30,783 nucleotides of DNA from the IMG/VR virus record IMGVR_UViG_3300028393_000244, positions 1 to 30,783 of that record; one strand, 5' to 3'. The DNA comes from a virus. The position numbers and the translations under genes are program-made. A model generated the notes under the pieces. It did no database searches, was not told where the DNA came from, and saw only the letters and a program-made list of their open reading frames with translations. Positions 6,496 through 30,783 of the stretch are shown piece after piece. The number at the start of each line of letters is the position of its first letter. Position 1 is the first letter of the stretch.

Positions 6496-6863
6496 TGGCA
6501 ACATATAACAATTTACCTCCCACTCCCTCTCGGCAAGATTCTACAATAAGAGCGTTTGATAATTATTACGAACAGCCATTTGAATTGAATGCTGGCACAT
6601 TCTATATGATGAAGGGATTTTTTCAAAAACGCGGTTTTGCGGACAGCGCAGCAGAATCTGTTGCTGTGACCTTAATGAAACAGGCCAAGGTTGATGGTTA
6701 CAATCCTTTAGAAGTATTAGATAATCTAGGAGCAATAGATAATGTAGAATTAAACTCTGTTGTTTCGGAGATATTGAACTATAATAGATTTAAAACCAGT
6801 TTCATTGGATATGCCAACGGCTTTCAACCCAATGCTGAGGTAGCAAGAAATATCATAGCATGA
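6495..6863 (+). CDS. Small conserved T4-like virion or assembly protein
   Basis: A 122-residue soluble protein with no enzymatic motif. Visible blocks are FELNAGTFYMMKGFFQKRGF (residues 30-49), ESVAVTLMKQAKVDGYNPLEVLDNL and VVSEILNYNRFKTSFIGYA. I recall the same blocks from an unnamed protein of marine T4-like phages next to tail and head completion genes. It is translationally coupled on both sides: TAATG with the tube-domain gene, and ATGA with gp4. A structural or assembly role is inferred from the neighbours only. Confidence 0.6.
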   Translation: MATYNNLPPTPSRQDSTIRAFDNYYEQPFELNAGTFYMMKGFFQKRGFADSAAESVAVTLMKQAKVDGYNPLEVLDNLGAIDNVELNSVVSEILNYNRFKTSFIGYANGFQPNAEVARNIIA

Positions 6864-7303
6864 GCCTAAAATTCAGCCAAGGTATATATACCTTAAAGAA
6901 TCCTGAAAAATATGCAGGAAACAAACTGCCCTATTGTAGAAGCAGTTGGGAAACTACCTTCTGTATGTTTTGTGATAATAATCCTAGTATACAACAGTGG
7001 TCCAGCGAACCTGTAAAAATTCCCTATCAAGATCCACTAACAGGCAAACATACTGTATATGTTCCTGATTTCTTGATCACATATGTTGATAAGAATATGA
7101 AGAAACATGTAGAGATGATTGAGATCAAACCTGCTAACCAAACACTAATAGAAAAAGTCGGTAAAAATCCCTACAATCAAGCACAGTTTGTCAAGAATAT
7201 GGCCAAGTGGGATGCTGCTAGCAAGTGGTGTCGGAATCAAGGTATCAAATTTCGCATCATAAACGAATCCGATATATACCATAATCCCAAAAAAAAGAAA
7301 TAA
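6860..7303 (+). CDS. 4: Head completion protein gp4 (PD-(D/E)XK nuclease fold)
   Basis: A 147-residue protein matching T4 gp4 (gp50/gp65 family), which completes filled heads before tail joining. The nuclease-like core is readable: RSSWE with E31 in the first helix, VPDF with D70, and MIEIKP with E88 and K90, a full PD-(D/E)XK set like that of TnsA-type nucleases. The C-terminal KWDAASKWCRNQGIKFRIINESDI is also typical of the family. It overlaps the upstream gene by ATGA, and gp16 follows after 8 bases. Whether the nuclease trims packaged DNA ends is inferred from the intact residues. Confidence 0.8.
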   Translation: MSLKFSQGIYTLKNPEKYAGNKLPYCRSSWETTFCMFCDNNPSIQQWSSEPVKIPYQDPLTGKHTVYVPDFLITYVDKNMKKHVEMIEIKPANQTLIEKVGKNPYNQAQFVKNMAKWDAASKWCRNQGIKFRIINESDIYHNPKKKK

Positions 7304-7311
7304 GTAAGTTT

Positions 7312-7788
7312 ATGACTAAAAAACTTCAAGAAATATTTGATCTGCCCGCCGATACAGATCCATTAGTTACTCCTGACAAAGAAACTACTCCTGTTACTAC
7401 TATTAATTTAGAGGATCGATTAGAAGAATTTGATAAAATTGCCGCAGCATTGCCTAGAGTAAAAGGCCTAGGCGACATGGCAGACACCGAATTAGATGCG
7501 CTGGCCGCCAAAGCAGAACAAGCATATGACGACTTGATGGACCTAGGCATGAACGTAGAAGCTCGATATAGTACACGTATGTTCGAAGTAGCGGGGCAGA
7601 TGTTGAATGCTGCTATCACCGCTAAAACCAATAAAATAGATAAGAAATTAAAGATGGTCGATCTGCAACTTAAGAAATTGGCCATAGATAGGAAAAACGG
7701 CGGCGGCGAAGGGGCAGTTGAAGGTGAAGGATACATACTTACAGACCGTAATAGTATCTTGGAAAAACTTAAGAATATGAATAAATAA
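7312..7788 (+). CDS. 16: Small terminase subunit gp16
   Basis: A 158-residue acidic-to-basic helical protein. T4 gp16 is 164 residues. The central region (about 65-125: EQAYDDLMDLGM, YSTRMFEVAGQMLNAAITAKTNKIDKKLKM) matches the long helical hairpin of T4-like small terminases, which form a ring that recognises DNA and stimulates the gp17 motor. The N-terminus (EIFDLP...) is the usual start of this family in marine relatives. It lies in the packaging cluster, separated from gp17 by two capsid-interior candidates. AATAAATA at its 3' end overlaps its last codons and serves the next gene. Confidence 0.75.
   Translation: MTKKLQEIFDLPADTDPLVTPDKETTPVTTINLEDRLEEFDKIAAALPRVKGLGDMADTELDALAAKAEQAYDDLMDLGMNVEARYSTRMFEVAGQMLNAAITAKTNKIDKKLKMVDLQLKKLAIDRKNGGGEGAVEGEGYILTDRNSILEKLKNMNK
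7780..7787 (+). promoter_or_regulatory. Late promoter AATAAATA inside the end of gp16
   Basis: AATAAATA lies over the last codons of gp16. The T4-type spacing predicts a transcript start at 7793, two bases before the ATG at 7795. No Shine-Dalgarno is present upstream of that ATG. Confidence 0.5.
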
Positions 7789-7794
7789 TATATT

Positions 7795-8397
7795 ATGAAA
7801 ACATTCAAAAACTACCTACAAGAAAGCACACTGGCCAAAAAATACGACTTCCGTGTTAAAGTAGCCGGAGACTTTACTTCTGATCAAGAAGGTAAATTGA
7901 AGACTATGCTTGCTAGATACCAAGTAGAAACTTTTAAGAAAGTCGGAACAACTCCTATCCAGGAACTTCCATTAGATTTTCCTCAAGTTAAAAACTGCGA
8001 AGTATCTATATACGAAGTTAGTTTGAACTACCCTACCACACAACAAGAGCTAACAGAATATCTTACATCGGGGTTAGAAGTTAGTCGGCAAAATCTAGTT
8101 GTTCGTCGTCCTGGCGAACCCAGTGAAGAATATCAGCATGTTGAAGCAAATCCAAGAACTGGTGCTTTGCTAGATGACCCAAATTATAAAGAAGCAGGTG
8201 ATCCTAAGTTTGAAGATTACTACGGAGACAAATACAACAGTGGATTTGTCAAAGAGTTAAACGACATACTAAAACTACAACGCAAAGCACGTGGTGAAGA
8301 AATCCCAACAGAAGGCGCAGCGAAATATAACACTGATAATCCTGCCCATACAGAAAGTCCAATCAAACAGTCGGACTATAATCCCATAAGGAAATAA
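7795..8397 (+). CDS. Probable head-interior protein with T4-type capsid-targeting N-terminus
   Basis: A 200-residue protein of unknown function. Its first residues, MKTFKNYLQES, closely match the capsid-targeting sequence of T4 internal proteins (IPIII begins MKTYQEFIAEA). They include the L-x-E followed by a small residue that prohead protease gp21 cuts. The rest holds FRVKVAGDFTSDQEGKLK and VSIYEVSLNYPTTQQELTEYL, a ferredoxin-like alternation of strands and helices, then a polar and probably disordered tail. I recall homologues in marine T4-like phages without assigned function. It sits between the two terminase genes. Cargo status is inference from the N-terminal motif. Confidence 0.6.
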   Translation: MKTFKNYLQESTLAKKYDFRVKVAGDFTSDQEGKLKTMLARYQVETFKKVGTTPIQELPLDFPQVKNCEVSIYEVSLNYPTTQQELTEYLTSGLEVSRQNLVVRRPGEPSEEYQHVEANPRTGALLDDPNYKEAGDPKFEDYYGDKYNSGFVKELNDILKLQRKARGEEIPTEGAAKYNTDNPAHTESPIKQSDYNPIRK

Positions 8398-8399
8398 TT

Positions 8400-9506
8400 A
8401 TGCAGATGATTGATGTAATGAAGCGTTTAGCAGAGCTGGACAGTACAAACCCTACTATTGTTAAAGAAAATCAACAAGTAGATGAATGCGGAATAATGCC
8501 AGGAATGATGGGCGGTATGGATCGTCCCGGAACACCTGCTAATATCAGTATCACTGCAGGCAGCGGTCCTGAACTAAGCGGCATGCTAAGAGATATCATG
8601 CAACTAGCAGGCGTACATAAAGTAGAGCCCGGCCATATGGGCATGGAGCACGATCCAGTGGCATTGACAGCAGAACCTGCCATGGTCGCTGGACCACACG
8701 CAAGTGACGGCGAAATGATGCGTAGTGTTATTGATAAAATGAACCCAGAAGGGGGCGACGATGAAGTCGGCGATGTTGATCACGACATGGACGACCGCGA
8801 AGGGGAAGAAGAAACCGACGAAGGTCAATATGACAACAGTCCTAATGACCCACGTAAGCCTCCTCCTTTCAAGGCCAACCAATTTGCTCATCAAGAAAAT
8901 CAACCCGGACAAGGTGATAGAATGGATGGCAATATGCCTAAGGCCACAATGGAAGAAAAATTAATGGCCGATTACCAAGCGTTTTTAGCCGAAGGTGTTA
9001 TGGACACTATCAAAGGATTAGCAGCCAAGGCCATGAAAGCGTTAGGTGGTGATGCTATCGCTGATATTGCCGATAAAGTAAAACAAGCAACCGGCGGCGA
9101 TTATAGTGCAACTCCGGAGAATGCTAAAAAAGTTGCACAAGCATTGGGTTTGGCCAGTATGGCAAAAGGCTCAGCAGGACAGACTCCACAAGAAGTTGCC
9201 GAAGGTTGGGGACTTGCCGGCAATTGGCAAGGCAAATTACTTCAGTTAGCACATGTGGCTGTAGCCGGAGCCGGACTTGCTCAATTTTTTGGCGGACAAG
9301 CATTAACTGGCATGCAAGGATTTGGTGGCGGCGGTGAGCTCCTAGTAGGCGCCGGCTTAATCGCATTAATGCTGGCAGAAACTTTCTGGAGCCAAAATAA
9401 AGGCATGGTAGGCTCGATGGGCAACAATGGCAATACAGGAATGTCAACTGCTGCCGGTCCAACTAGTTCAAGATCGATTGCTGACAGAGGTATTCCTGCC
9501 AGATAA
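8400..9506 (+). CDS. Unknown virion protein with internal prohead-protease-like site and two hydrophobic helices
   Basis: A 368-residue mosaic. The N-terminal half is Met/Gly- and Asp/Glu-rich and looks disordered (GIMPGMMGGMDRPG; a very acidic run near residues 120-145). At residues 190-199 is DYQAFLAEG, almost the T4 capsid-targeting and cleavage motif (YQEFIAE then a small residue), predicting a cut after E198. The C-terminal part is Ala/Gly-rich with two hydrophobic stretches (about 280-298 and 313-330, LLVGAGLIALMLAETFW) that could be membrane segments. TAAGGA supports the ATG at 8400. A UUCG-loop terminator follows. A head-interior or DNA-ejection role is inference; the family is unknown to me. 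Confidence 0.55.
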   Translation: MQMIDVMKRLAELDSTNPTIVKENQQVDECGIMPGMMGGMDRPGTPANISITAGSGPELSGMLRDIMQLAGVHKVEPGHMGMEHDPVALTAEPAMVAGPHASDGEMMRSVIDKMNPEGGDDEVGDVDHDMDDREGEEETDEGQYDNSPNDPRKPPPFKANQFAHQENQPGQGDRMDGNMPKATMEEKLMADYQAFLAEGVMDTIKGLAAKAMKALGGDAIADIADKVKQATGGDYSATPENAKKVAQALGLASMAKGSAGQTPQEVAEGWGLAGNWQGKLLQLAHVAVAGAGLAQFFGGQALTGMQGFGGGGELLVGAGLIALMLAETFWSQNKGMVGSMGNNGNTGMSTAAGPTSSRSIADRGIPAR

Positions 9507-9566: not shown

Positions 9567-11144
9567 ATGGTAGCTGAAAATAAACTGGTCAAATCGGCCA
9601 ACATAACACAAAAATGGACCGAACAAGATATTGAAAACTTGATACGTTGTCAAGATCCTGTCAATGGACCGCATTTCTTCTTAGAACACTTTTTCTATAT
9701 TCAACATCCCATTAGAGGAAAATTGCTGTATCAGCCTTACGAATATCAAAAACGTTTAATTGACAGTTATCACAATCATAGATTTAATGTAAACCTACTA
9801 CCTCGACAGACAGGTAAGACAACCACTGCTGGCGGATATCTATTGTGGTTTGCCATGTTTGTTCCGGACAGTACTATTCTAATTGCTGCGCACAAGTACA
9901 CAGGTGCTCAAGAAATTATGGCACGTATCCGCTATGCTTACGAATTGTGTCCGGATCATATTCGTTGTGGCGTCAAAAGTTATAATAAACAAAGCATTGA
10001 CTTTGACAACGGATCACGTATTATTGCTCAAACAACAACTGAAACAACAGGTCGTGGTCTTTCCCTATCATTATTATACGCAGACGAGTTTGCGTTCGTA
10101 CCGCCTAATGTGGCCACAGAATTCTGGACTTCTATTTCACCTACATTGGCCACAGGTGGTAAGGCGATTATCACTTCAACACCTAACAGTGACGAAGATC
10201 AGTTTGCCTTGATATGGAAAGAGGCTAATAAACGCTATGATGAACATGGTAATACTACAGAAGTAGGTATCAACGGATTCTTTCCATTCAAAGCACATTG
10301 GACAGAACATCCTGATCGTGACGAAAAATGGGCCAATGAAGAACGCAGTCGGATCGGCGAAGAACGATTCCGCCGCGAGCACGATTGCGAATTTCTTGTA
10401 TTCGACGAAACATTGATCAGTAGTATTAAACTGGCAGATCTAGAAGGACGAGAACCCATTATTAAAATGGGGCAGTGTAGATGGTATAAGAAAATTAATC
10501 CCAAGAATACTTATATTATAGCATTGGATCCTAGCTTAGGTACAGGCGGTGACCCTGCAGGTATACAGATTATCGAATTACCTACATTTGATCAAGTAGG
10601 AGAATGGCATCATAATTTAACTCCTATACAAGGGCAGGCCAGGATATTGCGTGACATTTGCCAATATATTTCCGATGAATGTACCAAGAAAGATACACAG
10701 CCTAGTATATATTACAGTGTAGAAAATAATAGTGTAGGAGAAGCAGCATTGGTTGCTATCAATGAAATAGGCGAAGAAAGTATTGCCGGATTATTTCTAA
10801 GTGAACCCATTAGAAAAGGTCATGTGCGTAGATATCGCAAAGGATTTTATACAACGCACACTAGTAAGATTGCTGTTTGTGCCAAACTAAAACATCTAAT
10901 TGAATCTGATCGAATGAAACTCAACAGCAAACCTTTAGTCAGTGAGTTAAAAACTTTTGTGGCCAAAGGCATAAGTTTTGAAGGAAAAACCGGAATGCAT
11001 GACGATCTTGTATCCAGCCTATTACTGGCCATACGCATGATCATGCTACTACAAGACTGGGATCCTGCCATATACGATAAAATGCGTGAAGAACGAGAAG
11101 ATGAGTGGCTCATGCCCATGCCTGTTTATATAAGCTCATTTTAA
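9567..11144 (+). CDS. 17: Large terminase subunit gp17 (packaging ATPase/nuclease)
   Basis: A 525-residue headful-packaging motor that cuts concatemers and pumps DNA into proheads through the portal. Walker A is LPRQTGKTTT (residues 78-87). Walker B with the catalytic carboxylate is LLYADEFAFVP (D173, E174), followed by the coupling motif SPTLATGGKAIITSTPN. The C-terminal RNase H-like nuclease domain shows IIALDPSLGTGGDP (D321) and GMHDDLVSSLLLA (D479, D480). It is shorter than T4 gp17 (610), mainly at the ends, as is common in marine T4-likes. It is flanked by a terminator and its own late promoter and followed after 15 bases by the next late promoter and gene. Confidence 0.96.
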   Translation: MVAENKLVKSANITQKWTEQDIENLIRCQDPVNGPHFFLEHFFYIQHPIRGKLLYQPYEYQKRLIDSYHNHRFNVNLLPRQTGKTTTAGGYLLWFAMFVPDSTILIAAHKYTGAQEIMARIRYAYELCPDHIRCGVKSYNKQSIDFDNGSRIIAQTTTETTGRGLSLSLLYADEFAFVPPNVATEFWTSISPTLATGGKAIITSTPNSDEDQFALIWKEANKRYDEHGNTTEVGINGFFPFKAHWTEHPDRDEKWANEERSRIGEERFRREHDCEFLVFDETLISSIKLADLEGREPIIKMGQCRWYKKINPKNTYIIALDPSLGTGGDPAGIQIIELPTFDQVGEWHHNLTPIQGQARILRDICQYISDECTKKDTQPSIYYSVENNSVGEAALVAINEIGEESIAGLFLSEPIRKGHVRRYRKGFYTTHTSKIAVCAKLKHLIESDRMKLNSKPLVSELKTFVAKGISFEGKTGMHDDLVSSLLLAIRMIMLLQDWDPAIYDKMREEREDEWLMPMPVYISSF

Positions 11145-28192: not shown

Positions 28193-30783
28193 TTAAGGCG
28201 ATGTGCCCACATTGGTACTTGGGAACTGTCTAACCTGTCCTGGCCAGATGATACGAACTGCGCCGCTAGCACCTTGGCCATAGGTTCCGCAGGATGTAGT
28301 TCCGCCCGATCCGACTGTCACTGTAAAATTGCTGCCCGATGTAACAGTATAATTATTGATGTATCCTAAAGCACCACCGCCTCCGCCGGCCAAGGCGCCA
28401 CTGCCACCTGAGCCACCACCACCACCATACAATCCGCCATTTCCGCCGCGGTTGTTTGTAACGCAACGATTTTGTCCGGTCGCGCCGCCGCTACCGCCAC
28501 CACCACCTTTACAGCCGGCAGCGATACCAGCGGCACCGCTAGCACCTTCGCCATATAATCCAACACCACCACCGCCACCGGCAGCGTTATTTGGACTCCT
28601 GCCACCGGCACCACCACCACCTCCGCCACCGGCGCCTGCTGATCCATCTAACCCGGCACTTGCACCTGCACCACCTGCTCCTGAGTATCCACCAGCACCT
28701 CCGCCGCTGCCTTGATTACAAGCGCCGGCAGCACCACCAGCACCACCAGAACCACCGCTGCCAACGCTAACAGTACCACCAGAACCACCGCTCGGTGAGG
28801 TGGTGCCGCCGCCGGCGGTAAGAAGATTAGTGGTAGCCACCGGTGCCTGTGGCGCAGTATAGAAAGAACTAAGAGTTCCGGAAGTAGGTGTATTTGGCGC
28901 GACCGTCCTTGCTGCTCCGCCGCCGCCTACTGCAACCACACTAACTGATGTAACTCCAGAAGGTACTGTCCATGTATAACTGCCTGCTGAAGTATACAAC
29001 TGGCTACCGTTTTGTATATATGTAGCAGCAGTAAGACTATTACTACTAGTACTATTACCATACGAGTTAGTGGCATATCCAGATATTGAATATGTGGTAA
29101 GTTGAGTCAGCCCGGATATTACCACGGTAGTACTAACAGAGGTACTTATAAATGTTGTAGTACCTGTAGTGGCCACTGCGGTATAACTGGTAACAGCTGA
29201 TCCTCCCGAATATGTTGGTGCTGTGAAACTGGCTGTAATCGCTGTAGAACTATTTGGTGTTACAGATGATAAAGTGGGTGCGCTAGGCACATATGTTTGA
29301 TTTATAGTTGCTGTATCAGTTTCGTAACTCTGAGCTACATTGGTACTTGGGAAAGATCTAGCCTGACCTGGCCAAATGATGCGAACTGCACCGCTAGCAC
29401 CAGTACCGCCAGGTGAAGCGCCTCCGCCACCAACTGTTACAGTATAAGTAATGCTCGGAGAAACTGCGTAGTTGTTGATGTATGCTAAATGACCACCAAA
29501 ACCACCGCATGATGCGCCGTTAGGTGTTGCGTTATTTGCGCCACCGCCGCCACCAAACAATCCGCCAACTCCGCCAATATTAGGAGTAAAGTTTTGTCCA
29601 GCAAGACCACTACTTCCGCCACCGCCGCCGCGACAGCCGGCAGCAATTCCGCCGGTGCCGCAACCGCCTTGGCCAAATAATCCAACTCCTCCGCCACCTC
29701 CGCCGCCCTTGCCCGGATTAGTAGTGGTGCCAGATGCTCCACCACCACCGCTTCCTCCGGTTCCGGCAGTTCCATTTGCGCTTGAATTGCCACTCGCGCC
29801 GGCGCCACCTGCTCCTGAGTAACCACCGGCACCGCCGCCTCCTGACATACCACACGCTGTGCTGGATGTTCCACCGGCGCCGCCGGCATAAGAAACATAG
29901 CCAGGTGCGCCGGAGCTGGACGTGCCCGGCGTGCGTGACGTGCAACCACTACTGCCGCTGCCGGCAGTAACAATATTAGTAGATGCTTGTGGTGCAGGCG
30001 GAGAGGAATAAAACGAACTAAGCCCACCAGCAGATGGAGCGACAGGATAACCTTTACCACCACCACCGCCACCTACAGCAACTACACTAACTGATGTGAC
30101 ATTTATTGGGGCTACCCAGGAATAAGTTCCTGGAAAAATAAACACGGTACTACTACTTGCCACAAGTGTTGAAGTACTAAGACTATTACTGCTGGTACTG
30201 TTTCCATAAGCATTGGTGGCGTACACAGATAATGAATATGAGGTAAGTGGTGCTAATCCACGTACTAGAACAAAGTAACTACCTGCTGTGGATATATTAC
30301 CGGTACTTACAACTGTCGTGCCCGAAGTAGCCACAGCAGTATAACTGGTAACGGCCGATCCTCCTGCATATGTAGGTGCTGTGAAATTAACTGTAATTGC
30401 TGTGGAACTACTTGGTGATACTGATGTTACAGTAGGCACACTTGGTACATATGATTGGTTCAAGGTTACAGTATCTGTTTCAAAAGCACCTACATTGGTA
30501 CTTGGAAATTGTCGAACCTGTCCAGGCCAAACGATACGTACAGCTCCTTTTCCACCATCACCAGTTAATGGTGCTGCTCCACCGGCACCTACTACAACCG
30601 GATAACTTGATCCAGGAGTTACTGAATAATTATTGATGTATGCCAGCGCCCCGCCTCCACCAGCACCACCGGCACCTGCGCCAGGACTACCACCGCCACC
30701 TCCACCGCCAAATAGGCCGCCTGCTCCTCCGCCGTTTCCAGGAGAACTTGCGCCGTTAAGACCTCCAGAGCCGCCTCTTCCTC
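28193..30783 (-). CDS. Glycine-rich/fibronectin-III tandem-repeat fibre or adhesin protein, N-terminus outside window
   Basis: The minus-strand frame is open to the right edge (863 codons seen); the TTG at 30463 is internal. The protein is built of repeats of about 376-385 residues. Each has (a) a boundary segment WPGQVRQFPSTNVG...ETDT, (b) NQTYVPSAPT plus an Fn3-like domain (SSTAITVNFTAP...GGSAVTSYTAVA...YATNAYGNSTSSNSL), (c) a YTWTVPSGVTSVSVVAVGGGG strand, and (d) 150-180 residues of Gly/Ala/Ser-rich sequence closed by YINNYTVT..TVTVGGGG. One unit plus the boundary of the next ends at the stop, WPGQVRQFPSTNVGTSP. Gly-rich domains of this type occur in phage tail fibres as polyglycine sheets. 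Host-recognition adhesin is the best inference; a host-like surface protein is less likely here. Confidence 0.75.
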   Translation of the reverse strand, partial: GRGGSGGLNGASSPGNGGGAGGLFGGGGGGGSPGAGAGGAGGGGALAYINNYSVTPGSSYPVVVGAGGAAPLTGDGGKGAVRIVWPGQVRQFPSTNVGAFETDTVTLNQSYVPSVPTVTSVSPSSSTAITVNFTAPTYAGGSAVTSYTAVATSGTTVVSTGNISTAGSYFVLVRGLAPLTSYSLSVYATNAYGNSTSSNSLSTSTLVASSSTVFIFPGTYSWVAPINVTSVSVVAVGGGGGGKGYPVAPSAGGLSSFYSSPPAPQASTNIVTAGSGSSGCTSRTPGTSSSGAPGYVSYAGGAGGTSSTACGMSGGGGAGGYSGAGGAGASGNSSANGTAGTGGSGGGGASGTTTNPGKGGGGGGGVGLFGQGGCGTGGIAAGCRGGGGGSSGLAGQNFTPNIGGVGGLFGGGGGANNATPNGASCGGFGGHLAYINNYAVSPSITYTVTVGGGGASPGGTGASGAVRIIWPGQARSFPSTNVAQSYETDTATINQTYVPSAPTLSSVTPNSSTAITASFTAPTYSGGSAVTSYTAVATTGTTTFISTSVSTTVVISGLTQLTTYSISGYATNSYGNSTSSNSLTAATYIQNGSQLYTSAGSYTWTVPSGVTSVSVVAVGGGGAARTVAPNTPTSGTLSSFYTAPQAPVATTNLLTAGGGTTSPSGGSGGTVSVGSGGSGGAGGAAGACNQGSGGGAGGYSGAGGAGASAGLDGSAGAGGGGGGGAGGRSPNNAAGGGGGVGLYGEGASGAAGIAAGCKGGGGGSGGATGQNRCVTNNRGGNGGLYGGGGGSGGSGALAGGGGGALGYINNYTVTSGSNFTVTVGSGGTTSCGTYGQGASGAVRIIWPGQVRQFPSTNVGTSP
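28244..30529 (-). repeat. Two tandem repeats of about 1.13-1.16 kb inside the fibre gene
   Basis: The Trp codon of the WPGQ boundary occurs at 30527-30529, 29372-29374 and 28244-28246, giving units of 1155 and 1128 bases (385 and 376 residues). Both units share the Fn3 and Gly-rich order. A third, incomplete unit fills 30530 to the window end. Confidence 0.85.

Follow-up and report, generated by a model that had tools for sequence, protein, structure and literature searches.

The internal proteins IPI, IPII and IPIII of phage T4 are optional and DNA-associated, vary between phages and have been proven to be injected. They are small proteins with capsid-targeting sequences (CTSs) of 10–19 residues; in the T4 record, both IPII and IPIII begin with MKTYQEFIAEA, and IPI begins with MKTFKEF and has an LxE-type site, ITE^A, at residue 19. 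Two further T4 proteins, the non-cargo head protein gp24 (MAKINELLRES) and the DNA-end protector gp2 (MAIFQIINES), likewise have brief N-terminal leaders, each with an (L/I)xE^S-type site at its end. In IPIII, targeting is carried mainly by residues 4 and 7 and processing by residues 8 and 10, and an aspartate at position 10 blocks processing while targeting is still possible (PMC9026906, section 2.6). N-terminal targeting propeptides taken off by the prohead protease are also found in SPN3US and phiKZ, where, unlike the leader described here, the head propeptides are mostly longer than 100 residues and have AxE/SxE sites (PMC5694885).

The window, which denotes the whole 30,783-nt stretch of viral DNA analysed (IMG/VR record IMGVR_UViG_3300028393_000244), contains an open reading frame from the ATG at 7795 to the last stop base at 8397, with a product of 200 aa whose codons 1–11 (7795–7827) encode MKTFKNYLQES. 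The features of the region are as follows.

6860–7303, + strand: gp4-like head-completion/closure protein with a TnsA-like fold, a conserved upstream neighbour
7312–7788, + strand: small-terminase-like (TerS-like) protein, the immediate upstream neighbour, assigned by phrog_16202 (unknown), a weak phrog_445 TerS match and synteny
7795–8397, + strand: coding sequence (200 aa) of a conserved virion protein with an N-terminal leader of the T4 capsid-targeting type
7795–7824, + strand: the leader, residues 1–10 (MKTFKNYLQE), in which, by analogy with T4 IPIII, F4/Y7 would serve targeting and L8/E10 processing
7822–7827, + strand: predicted prohead-protease cut LQE^S, between E10 and S11, from the site consensus of T4 and of the relatives' scaffold and capsid proteins
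7843–8106, + strand: predicted ferredoxin-like (beta-alpha-beta-beta-alpha-beta) domain, residues 17–104 (AlphaFold2, Foldseek)
8242–8289, + strand: predicted amphipathic helix, residues 150–165, beyond a disordered linker
8329–8364, + strand: conserved short motif NTDNPAHTESPI in the disordered tail, TTNDxPxxTSP in distant clades
8400–9506, + strand: next gene (368 aa), with an internal CTS-like/cut-site module
8964–8996, + strand: the internal module MADYQAFLAEG of the 8400 gene
9567–11144, + strand: large terminase (TerL, gp17-like)

Compared with the IPIII start, the leader is identical at four of 11 positions (M, K, T and E) and conservatively matched at four others (F/Y4, Y/F7, L/I8 and S/A11), and five of its first seven residues are shared with IPI. 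Like IPI–III, the window protein is small and combines an MKT-aromatic start with an aromatic residue 7, an aliphatic residue 8, E10 and a small residue next. F4 and Y7 belong to the aromatic or bulky hydrophobic class expected at CTS positions 4 and 7, and L8, E10 and S11 provide the aliphatic P3, the glutamate P1 and the small P1′ of a gp21-type site; therefore, all four T4 determinants (positions 4, 7, 8 and 10) are matched. The first-pass annotation had likened this leader to the IPIII start and recognised a prohead-protease site in it; both points were supported against sequences taken from the T4 record, the site LQE^S being of the gp21 type. The likeness to gp24 and gp2 lies in the leader, whereas their bodies are unrelated to that of the window protein, with no homology found.

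Chance resemblance to T4 was ruled out by leader conservation, synonymous codons and a permuted-pattern control. Within the first 12 residues of the 1,391 non-redundant ORFs of the related loci, there were 37 occurrences of the motif [FYW]xx[FYHW][LIVM]xE[SAG] versus 0.25 in shuffles, nearly all 37 being members of the 7795–8397 family. In 64 distinct leader DNA sequences of homologues recovered from IMG/VR, taken from loci outside the leader-scan recruits but not fully unbiased, part of them having been found using search patterns that included a leader peptide, F4 was encoded by TTT/TTC, Y7 by TAT/TAC, L8 by CTA/TTA/CTT/CTG and E10 by GAA/GAG; for the L029 query, no search pattern was taken from the leader. 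Residues 4, 7, 8 and 10 are kept via synonymous codons across the near clades, and this variety indicates selection on the residues and not on the DNA. Further, when IMG/VR was scanned for the leader pattern on any body, there were at least 120 matches versus 1 for the same codons permuted, and every match listed was an ORF start or was cut off by a contig end. Generic LxE[AGS] sites were weakly enriched in N-termini (22/165 versus 13 expected in the related contig G001, and 8/89 versus 7.3 in G003); thus, it is the complete [FY]xx[YF]LxE pattern that is diagnostic and not LxE[AGS] alone.

The 7795–8397 family comprises conserved virion proteins of giant-type, T4-like phages. PA5oct gp282, whose record is marked ESI-MS/MS, matches the window protein at 33.6% (E 6e-12), and PHROG 14802 (GAP32_204, CBB_210, RaK2 ORF047 and 121Q_557), annotated ‘virion structural protein’, matches its residues 7–112 (E 3e-4). 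A profile including PA5oct found homologues in GAP32, BF, RaK2, 121Q and XaC1, the first four at about 1e-13 or better; 13 unique peptides of CBB_210, whose homology, like that of GAP32_204, is based on this profile and on synteny, were detected in purified virions, covering 60.5% of the protein (PMC5259590). These relatives have a homologous body, reside in virions and occupy the same interval between the TerS-like and TerL genes. Thus, the profile match and the MS detection of the PA5oct and CBB homologues support, by homology, the virion residence that had been proposed for the product; the earlier label “unknown protein” is only partly right, as the protein groups with PHROG 14802. In Atu_ph07 gp113 (L289:3001-3756), a family member with a canonical site, the annotated start lies 29 codons 3′ of an in-frame ATG, from which the leader MKTLQDYLTESKK, missed by the public annotation, can be read. 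A virion protein could also be a neck or tail component that is not inside the head, and the gene does lie just 3′ of tail-tube and head-completion genes, while virion MS, which does not separate head from tail, by itself gives no placement. Such a location is nevertheless very improbable, because the leader and cut site are typical of the prohead core, no tail family was matched and PHROG 14802 is assigned to the head and packaging category.

In a set of 87 distinct leaders, position 4 is always F/L and position 7 always Y/I/H/F, a statement that is partly circular because leaders were picked by regular expression; in alignment A1, which is independent of that expression, F4 and Y7 are among the columns conserved at ≥90%. 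Residue 10 and the next differ between clades: near clades have E-S/A, the L029 clade has D-L, S-R or E-R, PA5oct has A-S, and RaK2-like phages have E-L, D-N or E-K. Leaders without a canonical cut site include MKSFRDYYDAS of PA5oct, those of the L029 clade (e.g. MKSLNEYIADL) and MNKLQKILTEL of RaK2-like phages. PA5oct gp282 and PHROG 14802 therefore differ from the window protein in leaders (YDAS, LTEL, LTDN and LTEK) that have no canonical protease site, so targeting without trimming is expected for them. Since some of these site-less members are found in virions, cutting cannot be a general requirement for function, and since residues 4 and 7 persist in distant clades that have lost the site, import without trimming is predicted there; the split between positions 4/7 and 8/10 matches the expectation from T4 mutants. 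Canonical leaders, MKTFREYLNEA and MKTFKHYLQES, were also seen on proteins unrelated to the family (L063:18933-20009 and L073:18908-19468), in a clade whose own family member has lost its cut site.

The window is a fragment from which the protease, the capsid gene and the capsid cluster are absent, so we infer the cutter from a related phage contig, the 200-kb G001 (locus L085), whose family protein is 53% identical and starts with MKTFKEYLSES. The head genes of G001 encode a portal, an acidic gp67-like protein, gp21 (PF03420, E 1e-26), a gp22-like scaffold and gp23 (PF07068, E 2e-81). Its scaffold contains 10 [LIVM]xE[AGS] sites versus 0.99 expected (Poisson 1e-7), ranking first among 187 genes in this enrichment. 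G003 and G007 resemble G001 in scaffold site enrichment, and a gp21-type protease with a gp22-type core was seen in all three and in PA5oct. In G001 gp23, HLIE^S stands a short way ahead of the conserved capsid core, close to where T4 has FLTE^A in an alignment that is gapped and inexact around the cut site. The scaffold and capsid sites of these relatives indicate that the leader shows the same protease consensus as its phage group. At the sequence level, packing of the product in the head, as first proposed, is well supported by the leader, the relatives' gp21/gp22/gp23 and the virion homologues. The leader is likewise well supported as a putative T4-type head-import tag, and trimming after E10 is likely.

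A T4-type CTS is expected to be portable, and the leader was here found on unrelated proteins: among the matches listed in the IMG/VR scan, 117 complete leader carriers fell into 37 clusters with unrelated bodies, the biggest being the 7795–8397 family with 51 members. A 247-kb phage contig (G018; L217, L297 and L301-L304) has a gp21 gene and five CTS-like N-termini, of which MKTYQEFISEA, MKTFKEFLEEA and MKTFKEFIEES each stand on a different protein; MKTYQEFISEA is one residue off the T4 IPIII leader, and its presence beside the other two on one contig directly links the MKTFK form to the T4 form. This distribution bears on another reading of the leader, namely as a portal/terminase docking peptide of a packaging accessory factor with only a secondary likeness to LxE[SA] sites, which would agree with a gene lying between the TerS-like and TerL genes, with the persistence of the leader's hydrophobic pattern in several clades that have no cut site, and with the high rank, at modest scores, of nucleic-acid-binding folds (S6 and the E1 DNA-binding domain) for the body. 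We consider it unlikely, because no fewer than 36 unrelated protein types besides this one bear the leader, some of them enzymes without a packaging role, and because near clades keep the canonical cut-site residues via synonymous codons.

Several of the other carriers could be assigned a domain. The anti-CBASS phosphoesterase Acb1 bears the leader MKTFKDYLIES/T at L220:8603-9130 (+), L285:3001-3528, L286:3001-3528 and L287:3001-3531, with PF23474 at E 4e-12 and 1e-12, above the curated cut-off, and two HxT motifs; in L285 its gene is directly 3′ of the gp22 scaffold (PF25623) and gp23 (PF07068) genes. The N-terminus of T4 57B/Acb1 is MMEFKDFSTG, without a cut site. The leader-bearing form suggests that an anti-CBASS enzyme is packed in the virion, and our literature search, whose coverage was incomplete, uncovered no earlier description of MKTFK-type leaders or of Acb1 packaging. 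Two neighbouring genes, L166:6302-6889 (−) and L166:6889-7389 (−), both start with MKTFKQYFLES but differ in their bodies: the first-named type is a GNAT acetyltransferase (PF13508), whereas the other matches PHROG 2579 (ParB C-terminal domain) and contains an IYRAVP motif that looks ADP-ribosyltransferase-like by eye. Further carriers (L240:6695-7522, L283:6199-6618, L214:2326-3558 and L272:5457-6701) have a phage lysozyme with LysM (PF00959, PF01476), a double-psi lytic transglycosylase-type domain (PF03330) and, in two cases, DUF6267, one of the latter with a KWDGAPA motif reminiscent of nucleotidyltransferases.

The body of the window protein was modelled with AlphaFold2 on a 41-sequence alignment, with a mean pLDDT of 66 and mostly about 69–84 in the folded core; the single-sequence model (pLDDT 34) was useless. 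In the alignment-based model, a helix at residues 4–14 precedes the ferredoxin-like domain, which is followed by a disordered linker, the helix at 150–165 and a disordered tail, whose conserved motif is possibly a docking peptide. Foldseek returned ribosomal S6-type ferredoxin-like folds from the PDB with modest scores and a target-normalised TM of about 0.5, and uncharacterised phage proteins from BFVD; with matches of this kind only, no function was inferred from the fold. Profile searching of the PDB gave chance matches only, and an Rctr41k terminase match (E 0.1) was also taken as chance.

The gene neighbourhood is highly conserved. A gp4-like gene lies within 1.5 kb upstream in 145/146 family loci with enough upstream sequence, a TerS-like gene is directly upstream in 141/146, and TerL is within 6 kb downstream in 31 of the 43 loci with enough downstream sequence; no second copy of the family gene was seen within any family locus. 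The order gp4, TerS-like, 7795–8397 family, structural genes, TerL also holds in PA5oct and is varied in jumbo phages. Such single-copy, syntenic and conserved placement indicates the behaviour of a core head gene. PA5oct gp281, the positional counterpart of the 8400 gene, is a virion protein, and relatives of the 8400 protein keep LMA[DE]YxxF[LV]xE[GS], mostly near their C-termini. Homologues mostly end soon after this module; the part after LAE^G (8964-9506) had no relative in the fetched loci, and a test of kinship between this extension and the 121Q_558/GAP32_205 proteins gave no match. Elsewhere in the window, a long open-ended glycine-rich ORF with fibronectin-like repeated segments (28193-30781, −) is probably a tail adhesin.

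This placement weighs against the suggestion of the first-pass annotation that the protein may be anti-defence cargo, which the leader would load into the head to be trimmed and ejected with the DNA against host defence, like IPI–III. The leader type is common to T4 IPI–III, GmrSD restriction enzyme inhibitors (PMC12373910), and anti-CBASS Acb1 is among the other leader carriers. However, the family is single-copy, syntenic by the terminase genes (145/146 loci) and kept over very large divergence, whereas the T4 internal proteins are variable, poorly conserved accessory genes; the mature window protein has a pI of 5.25 and a net charge of −5 and so is acidic, as are its relatives (pI 4.5–6.0), whereas those of T4 are called basic (PMC9026906); it differs from them also in its predicted ferredoxin-like fold; and searches of PADLOC and NCBIfam gave no match. 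For the single-copy, syntenic, conserved and acidic nature of the protein and the lack of a PADLOC or NCBIfam match, an anti-defence role is not supported, is rejected as the leading reading and is regarded as improbable.

The window protein is therefore best described as a prohead-core client or conserved head protein with a T4-type CTS. We propose, with a probability of roughly 0.7, that it is a conserved head protein whose leader directs it through F4/Y7 to the scaffold core and is cut after E10 by a gp21-type protease, so that the mature protein lies inside the head. Residues 1–10 would form a short helix binding the scaffold core of the assembling prohead; F4 and Y7 would mediate this targeting, making the protein part of the core; and once cut at LQE^S, the mature protein with its ferredoxin-like fold would be free within the head, most likely serving there in structure or DNA packaging. 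On a broader view, for which we see about even odds, the CTS would be a general head-loading code of environmental T4-like phages, with the TerS-adjacent protein as its commonest and most conserved carrier and the clades as a natural series in which targeting is kept and trimming is variable; the same tag would also load enzymes, including Acb1, for delivery at infection.

These findings provide a sequence rule, checked against a permuted control, that predicts head-packed and possibly injected proteins of uncultured T4-like phages, and they make a testable prohead-core client of a virion protein that is widespread but unnamed. The site-less clades are natural mutants in which head targeting should be uncoupled from trimming by proteolysis.
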